From Blastocatellia bacterium (GTDB lineage Bacteria; Acidobacteriota; Blastocatellia; HR10), in the NCBI GenBank assembly GCA_035573895.1, contig DATLZR010000021.1:1-64000 (forward strand): a DNA stretch of 64,000 nucleotides. Direction: 5' to 3'. Below, in pieces: positions 8,018-11,427 of the stretch; the first letter of the stretch is position 1, and the number at the start of each line of letters is the position of its first letter. The translations under genes and the position numbers were made by a program. Under the pieces are notes generated by a model, which worked only from the letters and a program-made list of their open reading frames with translations, had not been told where the DNA came from and ran no database searches.

Positions 8018-8045
8018 TTGACGCTCGGTCGGACCCACGTATAAT
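8018..8045 (+). promoter_or_regulatory. sigma-70 promoter of the haem-copper reductase operon
   Basis: TTGACG (8018-8023), 16-nt spacer, TATAAT (8040-8045). The subunit II start codon is 27 nt downstream of the -10 and has a good ribosome site (GGGAGGTGAGGGG). Confidence 0.8.
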
Positions 8046-8072: not shown

Positions 8073-8633
8073 ATGTCACCTGTTCAGATCTTTTATTTCT
8101 TCTCAGGCCTTGCAACGCTCATTGCCCTTGTCTTCTTTCTTGTCTGGCGAAGCACAAAGCGAACCCGCCAGGTGGACTATCGCGCGGCCACCCAAGCGCG
8201 GAAGGTTTTCTTTTTCACGCTCACGGGGATTTTGACTGCCTTTTTGGGGATCACGCTGCCGCGCATGCCGTATCCGGGAGGAGGGCCGCTCCCGGACCGA
8301 GTCATTCACGTCGTGGGGAAGCAGTTCGCCTTCGCGATCTCAGAAACGCCGATCGAAACCGATAAGCAGTGGGAGGAGATTGCTTCATTTGCGCTGCCGG
8401 TCAAAATCCCCGCGGGGAGCTTGGTGGAGTTCCGCGTGACCAGTTTCGACGTGAACCACGGCTTCAGCATCTATGCCCCCGACGGGCGGCTTATCACACA
8501 GACACAAGCCATGCCCGGATATGTGAATCGTCTTCGCGCGCGGCTGAATGAACCCGGGCGTTATACCGTTTTGTGCCTGGAATTCTGCGGTCCGGCGCAT
8601 CACCGCATGCGAGGAGTGCTCCTCGTGGAATGA
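8073..8633 (+). CDS. haem-copper reductase subunit II with CuA centre
   Basis: The 186-residue protein has two N-terminal membrane helices (about 5-25 and 45-62) and a cupredoxin domain. CuA ligands are present: H129 in VNHGF, then C168-x3-C172-x3-H176-x2-M179 near the C-terminus. It accepts electrons from a soluble cytochrome or cupredoxin and passes them to subunit I. It is shorter than usual A-type subunit II (no cytochrome c tail). It is first in an operon with subunit I (22-nt gap) and SCO, which fits copper centre assembly. Confidence 0.92.
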   Translation: MSPVQIFYFFSGLATLIALVFFLVWRSTKRTRQVDYRAATQARKVFFFTLTGILTAFLGITLPRMPYPGGGPLPDRVIHVVGKQFAFAISETPIETDKQWEEIASFALPVKIPAGSLVEFRVTSFDVNHGFSIYAPDGRLITQTQAMPGYVNRLRARLNEPGRYTVLCLEFCGPAHHRMRGVLLVE

Positions 8634-8654
8634 AGCGCATTGGGAGGAGAGGAT

Positions 8655-10142
8655 ATGGCGGAAGGGGTTGTCATCTCACCCGCGTGGTCGGAGATGGAGC
8701 AACAAGGATGGAAACGGTTGACTGGCACATGGATAATGGTGATGTTGCTTCTGTTTCCGATCCTCCTGCTCCTTGGTGCCTTCATGCGAACCGTTCAGGC
8801 GAATCTATGGCCCACGCTGCCGCCGGAATGGTTTTATGCCGTCATGACCCTCCATGGGTTGGGGATGGTTGGGACGTGGTTTGTGGGCGCGATGGCGGCA
8901 GTGAGTTACGTCCTGACTCAATATGTGCGTCCCAGCCGGGTCATCTCCTGGGCGGCATTGGGAGCCACGCTCCTGGGCGTCCTGATGCTTCTGGCCACGA
9001 CGCTCATCGGGCGATTTGGCGTAGGATGGTACTTCCTCTACCCGCTTCCTTTTTACTCGGGGGGATACTGGCCCCCGTGGGCGACGTGGACTTTCCTCTT
9101 TGCCCTGACGATCCTGGGCGTGGGGTGGACGATATGGGCGGTTGATCTCCTGCGAGCGATCGCGCAACGGTATTCGTTGCGGGCGGCTTTGGCCTGGCAC
9201 TATATCCGCGGGAAGACCGAGCCGGAGATCCCCCCGGCTGTTTTGATCACCACGGTCAGCCTGATTTCGGCCCTCTCTGGTTTCCTCGCGGCAGTGGTCA
9301 TTCTCGTGCTCTCGTTCCTGGAATGGGCGGGGACTGGATTCACCAACGATGCCCTCCTCATGAAGAATCTCATCTTCTTCTTCGGGCACGTCTTGGTCAA
9401 CATCACGATGTATCTCGGCGTCGTCCTCATCTATGACGTTCTTCCTCAATACAGTGAGCGGCCTTGGAAGACGAATCGCCTGGTGGCGATCTCATGGAAC
9501 ACGGTGTTGTTTTTGGTCCTCTTCGCTTACTTCCACCACCTCTACATGGACTTCGTGCAACCGAAGTGGATGCAGGTCTTCGGACAGGTGGCCTCCTACT
9601 TCATCTCGGTGCCGGCGGCCGTGGTGACCATCTTCAGCACGCTCCTGTTAGTCTATGGGGCCTCCATGCAGTGGACGCTCAGCTCGCTCCTGATGTATCT
9701 GGGCGTCATGGGATGGGCCATCGGCGGCGTGGCGGCCGTCATTGATTCGACGATTGCCGTGAACCTGCGGTTCCACAATACGCTCTGGGTGCCGGCCCAC
9801 TTCCACACATACTACTTGATGGGAGTCGTACTCATGCTCTTGGGGTTTGCGGCTCACTTCGGACGCGAGGTGAGCGGGCGACCCGAGAACGGCCGGCTCG
9901 CGAAGCTGATCGCCGCACTCTTTGTGATCGGAGGATACGGTTTCCTCTCGATGTTCTATCTCGGTGGAGCGCATTCAGTTCCGCGACGCTACGCCGTATA
10001 TCCGCAGGAGGTCATACAGGGAGTGGACTACGCGCGGATCGCGCTCGGATTCATTGCCGTCCTGTTGTTGGGCGTCCTGCTCTACCTTTGGGAGACGGGG
10101 AGGCGATGCGCCCTCGCCTTTCGCACATCGGAGCCATCGTGA
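8655..10142 (+). CDS. haem-copper reductase subunit I (b(o/a)3-like), lacking the active-site tyrosine
   Basis: The 495-residue protein has about 13 membrane helices. Low-spin haem ligands are H67 (TLHGLGM) and H384; the high-spin haem ligand is H382 in HNTLWVPAHFH. CuB ligands are H245, H294 and H295 (YFHHLYMD). In B-type oxidases the first CuB His is followed by Tyr four residues on (H-P-I-V-Y); here it is H245-V-L-V-N249, so the redox tyrosine is replaced by Asn. Several NO reductases derived from this family are known to lack this Tyr, so the enzyme may reduce NO rather than O2. ATG at 8655 is chosen from GGAGGAGAGG just upstream; the 3' end overlaps the SCO gene by 37 nt. Confidence 0.9.
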   Translation: MAEGVVISPAWSEMEQQGWKRLTGTWIMVMLLLFPILLLLGAFMRTVQANLWPTLPPEWFYAVMTLHGLGMVGTWFVGAMAAVSYVLTQYVRPSRVISWAALGATLLGVLMLLATTLIGRFGVGWYFLYPLPFYSGGYWPPWATWTFLFALTILGVGWTIWAVDLLRAIAQRYSLRAALAWHYIRGKTEPEIPPAVLITTVSLISALSGFLAAVVILVLSFLEWAGTGFTNDALLMKNLIFFFGHVLVNITMYLGVVLIYDVLPQYSERPWKTNRLVAISWNTVLFLVLFAYFHHLYMDFVQPKWMQVFGQVASYFISVPAAVVTIFSTLLLVYGASMQWTLSSLLMYLGVMGWAIGGVAAVIDSTIAVNLRFHNTLWVPAHFHTYYLMGVVLMLLGFAAHFGREVSGRPENGRLAKLIAALFVIGGYGFLSMFYLGGAHSVPRRYAVYPQEVIQGVDYARIALGFIAVLLLGVLLYLWETGRRCALAFRTSEPS

Positions 10143-10930
10143 GAGCCGCGATCTTGGCCGGGACGTTCCTGATCCCGCCTGTTGTGATGGCTCAGGTCGT
10201 GGGGGAGAAGTCGAATTCCCCGCCCAACGAAGGGCGGTACCTCTACAGGCCCGTTCCGGACATCCTCGTTCGCTCCTGGCGCGAGAGGTCCTTCCGCTTA
10301 TCCGAGCTCTGGCGGGAGCGGCCGATACTTTTGACTCTCATCTTCACACGATGCGCGGGAGTATGTTCTCCTCTGCTCCGGTCCCTTAAAGCGGCTGCCG
10401 CCTCCGTCGGAGGAGCGGGACGGGATTATACGCTCCTTGTCCTGAGCTTCGACGCCCGCGATACCACCTCGGATATGGCGGAGCTGGCGGAGCATCTGGA
10501 ACTCTCGAAGGATCAAGCGTGGATTTTCGGAATCGCGCCGGCCCAAGACATCGCTCAATTGATCCAGGCGACGGGATTCTGGTTCGAGTGGGAGGAGGCT
10601 TCGCGCCAATACGATCACCCGGCTATGGTGATCGGCATCCGCGATGGGCGCATCGTGCGGTTCCTGATCGGAGGAGCCGTCTCCCCCGTCCGCCTGCAGG
10701 AGGTTGTTCGGGAGATGCGCGGAGAGTTCGTCCCCGCATATCCCCTCCCTCGCCGCAACGTCCTCTTCCGATGTTTTCAATATGATCCGACGACCGGGCG
10801 ATGGAAGCCGGATTGGGGATTCGTCCTCCTGCTCATCCCCGGAATGATGACGATCCTCGCCACAGCCTGGATTTTCCGGCGAGGGCGAAAGCATCGCGCC
10901 CGGGAAGATCGAGCGAGAGAGTCGCCCTGA
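10106..10930 (+). CDS. SCO1/SenC family copper chaperone, membrane anchored
   Basis: The 274-residue protein has a signal-like helix (10-30), a thioredoxin-fold SCO domain (about 48-215) and a C-terminal membrane helix (about 240-262) with a basic tail. The copper-binding set is complete: C83-A-G-V-C87 and H171 in QYDHPA. SCO proteins deliver copper to the CuA site of subunit II, which fits the operon. The start overlaps the end of subunit I by 37 nt and has GGGGAGG before it. Confidence 0.92.
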   Translation: MRPRLSHIGAIVRAAILAGTFLIPPVVMAQVVGEKSNSPPNEGRYLYRPVPDILVRSWRERSFRLSELWRERPILLTLIFTRCAGVCSPLLRSLKAAAASVGGAGRDYTLLVLSFDARDTTSDMAELAEHLELSKDQAWIFGIAPAQDIAQLIQATGFWFEWEEASRQYDHPAMVIGIRDGRIVRFLIGGAVSPVRLQEVVREMRGEFVPAYPLPRRNVLFRCFQYDPTTGRWKPDWGFVLLLIPGMMTILATAWIFRRGRKHRAREDRARESP

Positions 10931-10944
10931 TCCCGCGCCCGGCG

Positions 10945-11427
10945 TCAGCCGGTTTTCCTCAACTCTTCGAGGTCCCGCAAGACTTCCTCGGCGTGCGTCT
11001 CCGGTTTCACCCGATCGTAGATTTTGGCGATACGCCCTTCCGGATCCACGAGGAACGAGATCCGATGCGTGCCCATCGTCGTGCGTCCCATGAAGGACTT
11101 CTGCCCCCAGGCGCCGTAGGCGCGGACGACCGCCTTCTCCTCATCAGCAAGCAAGATGAAGGGGAGGTCATACTTCTCGGCGAACTTCTCGTGGCTGCGG
11201 ACCGAGTCCGTGCTGATGCCGATGATCGCTATCTTTCGCCGTTGAAACTTCGGGAAGAGATCGCGGAAGCCGCAGGCTTCCTTCGTGCAACCGGGCGTAT
11301 TGTCCTTCGGGTAGAAGTAGAGGACGACCCATCGCCCCCGAAAGTCCGACAGCCGTCGCCGCTCCCCCTTTTGATCCAACAACTCAAAATCCGGAGCCAC
11401 ATCCCCCGTCTTCAACTTTGTCGCCAT
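10945..11427 (-). CDS. bcp: thioredoxin-dependent peroxiredoxin of the Bcp/PrxQ type
   Basis: The 160-residue protein has the peroxiredoxin fold. The peroxidatic Cys is in YPKDNTPGCTKEACGF, where the second Cys five residues later is the typical PrxQ/Bcp resolving Cys. The TTM-G-T-H-R-I-S-F-L-V-D motif follows. It reduces H2O2 and organic peroxides in the cytoplasm. The start at 11427 (MATKLKTGD) is the family start; an 80-codon in-frame extension upstream has no resemblance. It is convergent with SCO, 14 nt apart. Confidence 0.95.
   Translation of the reverse strand: MATKLKTGDVAPDFELLDQKGERRRLSDFRGRWVVLYFYPKDNTPGCTKEACGFRDLFPKFQRRKIAIIGISTDSVRSHEKFAEKYDLPFILLADEEKAVVRAYGAWGQKSFMGRTTMGTHRISFLVDPEGRIAKIYDRVKPETHAEEVLRDLEELRKTG

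Follow-up and report, generated by a model that had tools for sequence, protein, structure and literature searches.

An operon in the 64,000-nucleotide window (the whole stretch of DNA analysed), which comes from an acidobacterium, probably encodes a nitric oxide reductase of the sNOR family, with activity towards NO as the predicted function (Table 1). The first-pass annotation had proposed an NO reductase with CuA lying outside the cNOR and qNOR types; family membership, phylogeny and gene context make this the best-supported reading, although an enzyme of this kind has already been described. The window enzyme widens the proposed sNOR family; it does not establish another.

Table 1. Features of the operon and its signals in the window
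Feature	Position	Strand	Description
Candidate sigma-70 promoter of the operon	8018..8045	+	TTGACG-16-TATAAT, 11/12 consensus matches
Subunit II (NorS-like)	8073..8633	+	CuA domain, two N-terminal TM helices
Subunit I (NorY-like)	8655..10142	+	495 aa, 12 TM helices, haem-copper oxidoreductase
H245-V-L-V-N249	9387..9401	+	CuB ligand, then Asn at the cross-linked Tyr position
SCO/SenC copper-assembly gene	10088..10930	+	C-x3-C, C-terminal TM helix; likely start ATG ~10106
Terminator-like weak hairpin	10939..10952	+	3' of SCO, ahead of the convergent Bcp peroxiredoxin gene

The active site of subunit I carries Asn in place of the cross-linked Tyr

Subunit I matched PF00115 with 178 bits in a profile search. 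Its AlphaFold model (mean pLDDT 86) contained 12 long helices, and Foldseek matches were to bo3, aa3 and ba3 structures. Residue numbers count from the ATG at 8655; the TTG start at 8640 would add five residues. All six His ligands that had been read from the sequence are present (H67, H245, H294, H295, H382 and H384), and they align with those of ba3 and aa3 enzymes, represented by the T. thermophilus ba3 oxidase (reference sequence checked against 1EHK) and the A-type enzymes of the same genome. The claim that H245 (codon cac, 9387-9389) is accompanied by Asn249 (codon aac, 9399-9401) in place of the cross-linked Tyr was exact to the codon. In the alignment, the residues in register with Asn249 were the cross-linked Tyr of HPxVY motifs (HPIVY, HPEVY), the Gln of two plasmid-borne eNOR-like proteins (HGAQQ, HSSQQ) and the Glu of the qNOR from the same genome (HLWVE).

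Subunit I therefore lacks the H-x3-Y Tyr of A- and B-family O2 reductases, and membership of these families, ba3 included, was rejected. The alternative Tyr site of cbb3 oxidases, on helix VII six residues before the HH pair, is occupied by Val288 (82 of the 84 family members have V or I), and cbb3 membership in the C family was rejected on this position. Among K-channel residues, Ala321 stands at the position of ba3 Ser309, Thr325 aligns with ba3 Thr312 and the Lys of A-type enzymes, and Y260 aligns with ba3 Tyr248. Table A4 of PMC8756737, which follows Hemp and Gennis 2008, assigns the families an active-site residue: Tyr for oxidases, Glu for c/qNOR, Asn for sNOR and for the Bacillus CuA-NOR, Gln for eNOR and Asp for gNOR. 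The window protein has Asn rather than Asp, and gNOR was rejected.

A CuA subunit II and SCO are encoded on either side of subunit I

A CuA subunit II and SCO had been assigned to one operon with subunit I, and both genes do flank it. Subunit II matched PF00116 (E=1.3e-6) and scored 66.6 bits, under the cut-off, with the CoxB model; its transmembrane segments span residues 2-28 and 44-63. The CuA motif is complete (C168-L-E-F-C172-x3-H176-x2-M179, plus His129 upstream), its letters C-L-E-F-C-G-P-A-H-H-R-M following the pattern C-x-E-x-C-x3-H-H-x-M. The SCO reading frame, which overlaps the 3' end of subunit I, matched PF02630 with 26.8 bits, above the cut-off. The candidate promoter ends 27 bp upstream of the subunit II start; it is not proven, because shuffled sequences yield about one site of at least 9/12 matches per region. 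Terminator-like hairpins did not exceed the shuffled count. No orf1 follows senC in the window, where the next gene is that for the convergent Bcp peroxiredoxin.

Asn249 is conserved across many phyla

With one genome per GTDB species searched, 234 relatives were found, of which 80 were kept for analysis; these came from Acidobacteriota, Bacteroidota, Planctomycetota, Pseudomonadota, Spirochaetota, Calditrichota, Kryptonia and other phyla. Asn249 was present in 83 of 84 aligned family members from many phyla, the remaining one having Glu. Judged by this alignment, Asn at position 249 is not a chance occurrence. Ten residues (K237, N238, H245, H294, H295, D299, Q311, H374, N375 and T376) were invariant in the same 84 sequences. 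Y253, one helical turn past N249, and Y386 hardly varied in the family, and neither occurred in the A, B or eNOR-like rows used for comparison. Most relatives had the gene order II-I-SCO, and orf1 was missing from most of the window-side sister lineage.

The Glu-bearing protein (L015/L131, G067:C4:122491-123951; GHVTAE) is a subunit I nested inside the sNOR clade with support of 100/97. It has lost Y253, Y260, Y292, D364, N370 and Y386, has HLH in place of HFH, and no counterpart turned up in two further genomes from its order. This single sequence suggests that Y253, Y386, D364, Y260 and Y292 may work together with Asn249. A second unusual copy, on Parasedimentitalea marina plasmid pW43B (L021, 5866-7337), has subunit I split into two overlapping ORFs; the gene is probably frameshifted, since the two ORFs lie in different frames. 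Its neighbouring genes are annotated as intact.

The window lineage is sister to classical sNOR

The best plasmid match to the window subunit I was from Ruegeria pomeroyi, a species previously placed in Silicibacter, at 43% across the BLAST alignment; its locus has the order Rrf2, II, I, SCO, orf, FNT. sNOR has been listed for Betaproteobacteria, Silicibacter, Deinococcus and Geobacillus (PMC8756737), and the Nitrosomonas operon is norSY-senC-orf1 (PMC4940428). In the order of a burkholderialean relative, homologues were found in 9 of 399 genomes, the starting genome included. Of the other eight, two contained amoA and were taken as ammonia oxidisers on that account, being known by order and amoA alone; both had II-I-SCO-orf1 with FGHVFIN or FGHVVIN at the active site.

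A maximum-likelihood tree was built with few references per family and without bNOR, gNOR, nNOR or named Nitrosomonas rows; it was rebuilt without qNOR and cbb3 rows because these gave very long branches. The window lineage, R. pomeroyi and the amoA-positive homologues formed one clade (100/100), separate from the A, B (ba3) and eNOR-like rows. A phylogeny of subunit I among B-family oxidases and related NORs had been suggested as a check; in this tree its clade lies beside the B-family oxidases, not inside them. The window system thus combines Asn, six His ligands, an adjacent CuA subunit II, a downstream SCO and monophyly with named sNOR; orf1, an accessory sNOR gene of nitrifiers that does not define the family, is lacking.

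Within this clade, the window lineage (28 rows) was sister to classical sNOR plus Thermomicrobium (97/93). It shares 34-39% identity with classical sNOR over aligned columns, usually lacks orf1, and carries Y126, Y297 and Q302, which are absent from the classical sNOR rows. These differences would fit a NOR family in its own right, lying inside or beside sNOR and perhaps corresponding to nNOR, that uses its own donor and is regulated separately. We consider this unlikely: the two groups have in common the signature Asn, the II-I-SCO order and a single 100/100 clade, the tree being one without nNOR rows. It is similarly doubtful that the lineage in Acidobacteriota, Bacteroidota and Planctomycetota is a functionally distinct CuA-linked NOR family, sister to sNOR, which together with clade II NosZ would make NirK/NirS-less organisms NO-to-N2 scavengers. 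Read as sNOR, the window enzyme is modestly new as a member of a deep sister lineage of the classical enzymes in Acidobacteriota, Bacteroidota, Planctomycetota and other phyla, and the family occurs in many phyla beyond nitrifiers. Standard profiles (Pfam, NCBIfam) show only COX1/CtaD for the window protein. Since such profiles annotate sNOR-type enzymes as cytochrome c oxidases, predicted NO-reducing capacity is overlooked.

Predicted function and its genomic context

In the proposed mechanism, a cytochrome c or cupredoxin would pass electrons to the CuA of subunit II. A soluble donor is likely; the B. azotoformans CuA-NOR also accepts menaquinol (PMC3475470). Electrons would then move to a low-spin haem (H67/H384) and on to the haem-CuB site (H382; H245, H294, H295), the haem types being presumed. 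At this site, with NO as the predicted substrate, 2 NO + 2 H+ + 2 e- would give N2O + H2O, Asn249 taking the place of the cross-linked Tyr that oxidases need for O2 splitting. SCO would load the copper of CuA, and the N2O would be reduced by a NosZ encoded elsewhere in the genome. The physiological role would be NO detoxification or respiration beside qNOR. The literature searched yielded no report of a purified sNOR or of an NO assay with one.

The genome itself encodes three A-type oxidases, a qNOR (C101:30-2351) and a full-length Sec-type (clade II) NosZ (G000:C20:6784-8505; 931 bits, cut-off 625). The sole NirK match in this genome was the cupredoxin inside NosZ, and NirS gave no match; because the assembly is about 97% complete, the absence of both is likely rather than certain. 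As neither was detected in the genome, NO would have to be supplied externally or by a source that escaped detection. This set of genes is that of an NO/N2O consumer, as expected for a user of NO and N2O made by others. The operon had been thought to give the organism an NO sink; sNOR would be a second such sink, not a lone one, as an ordinary qNOR is also encoded.

Within ~5 kb, four of the 80 loci of relatives encoded a qNOR, eight the RIC iron-centre repair protein (ScdA_N plus hemerythrin), 10 a regulator of the Rrf2 type and 15 an FNT channel. A background rate calculated for RIC alone, 24 copies in ~117 Mb of 30 of the relatives' genomes, predicts 0.14 copies in the 683 kb of flanks; the observed count of eight is inflated because the Bacteroidota relatives are kin. 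The Rrf2 proteins of L050 and R. pomeroyi, the two that were scanned, had NsrR as their best NCBIfam model, with scores below its cut-off. The gene context of the relatives fits NO chemistry or NO stress. Two further genes recurred in these neighbourhoods. An HPP-family membrane protein is encoded directly 3' of the sNOR operon in two loci (L086 7562-8077; L093 7536-8075), and a nitrite-type transporter may accompany sNOR, since FNT is similarly placed in 15 other loci. A small DUF488 protein is encoded near sNOR in eight of the 80 loci (L074 8709-9068, L098 10069-10404 and others), often beside RIC.

It is also conceivable, if improbable, that the enzyme is a high-affinity O2 reductase or a bifunctional O2/NO enzyme, perhaps using Y253, Y292 or Y386. 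In N. europaea, sNOR genes were up 2.7-10.8 fold under O2 limitation (PMC6967387), and from this induction and the lack of the NorB glutamates the same study argues for a possible role as a high-affinity oxidase, though indirect evidence for NO reduction in Nitrococcus is cited there as well. The three tyrosines are family-wide and could in principle substitute near the CuB site, and the two that are nearly invariant, Y253 and Y386, are not shared with the A, B or eNOR-like sequences compared. Against O2 as the substrate, however, Asn stands where oxidases have their diagnostic residue (PMC3475470), Val288 occupies the cbb3 alternative, the neighbouring genes of relatives indicate NO stress, and the genome is already equipped with three A-type oxidases. 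NO reduction by an sNOR-type enzyme is therefore our preferred reading, and the broad lineage described here could help settle whether NO or O2 is the sNOR substrate. A decayed oxidase or an assembly error, in which the Asn would reflect recent loss of function or faulty sequencing, would account for a single residue departing from oxidases at the motif position, but was ruled out by the conservation of Asn249 (83 of 84) and by open frames in four same-family genomes at 85-92% identity.

Comparison with named systems

The window system resembles the sNOR of ammonia oxidisers and R. pomeroyi (NorSY-SenC-orf1) in its Asn, its CuA motif (C-x-E-x-C-x3-HH-x-M) and its adjacent SCO. Unlike classical sNOR, it belongs to the sister group and has no adjacent orf1, FNT or Rrf2 gene; no NO-linked neighbour gene or regulator was found at the window operon.

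The purified B. azotoformans CuA-NOR and its type II relative likewise combine the Asn with SenC and a CuA subunit II (PMC3475470). The latter, qCuANOR type II (BAZO_04705-04710, PMC3475470), was compared through its published description alone: like the window system it has a shorter 12-helix subunit I with Asn, two N-terminal helices in subunit II and a linked SenC/SCO; it differs in a linked polypeptide of 4-5 TM segments that is absent from the window operon. bNOR, the qCuANOR type I obtained in pure form from B. azotoformans, shares Asn, CuA and SenC, but is a ba3-like protein of ~568 aa and 13 helices with a small CbaC peptide. It was rejected for the window subunit I, which has 495 aa and 12 helices and lies outside the B (ba3) clade.

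Similarity to the T. thermophilus ba3 oxidase (1EHK) extends to the six His ligands, the CuA subunit II and the fold (Foldseek E ~1e-9), whereas Tyr237 faces Asn249, identity is ~21% and the clades are separate. qNOR and cNOR share the presumed reaction; they differ in having Glu at the site, FeB in place of CuB and no CuA, and were rejected on the Asn and on the presence of a CuA subunit II. The eNOR-like proteins (HGAQQ, HSSQQ) likewise have an amide residue in place of Tyr, but this is Gln rather than Asn and they grouped with the B family in the tree; eNOR was rejected on this residue. One eNOR-like subunit I gene, on Thermus thermophilus plasmid pHB5018d (L108, 2321-4003; HGAQQ), lies beside genes for an Rrf2 regulator and a RIC-like DUF542 protein, and its product has HFK in place of HFH, the second His being replaced by Lys.
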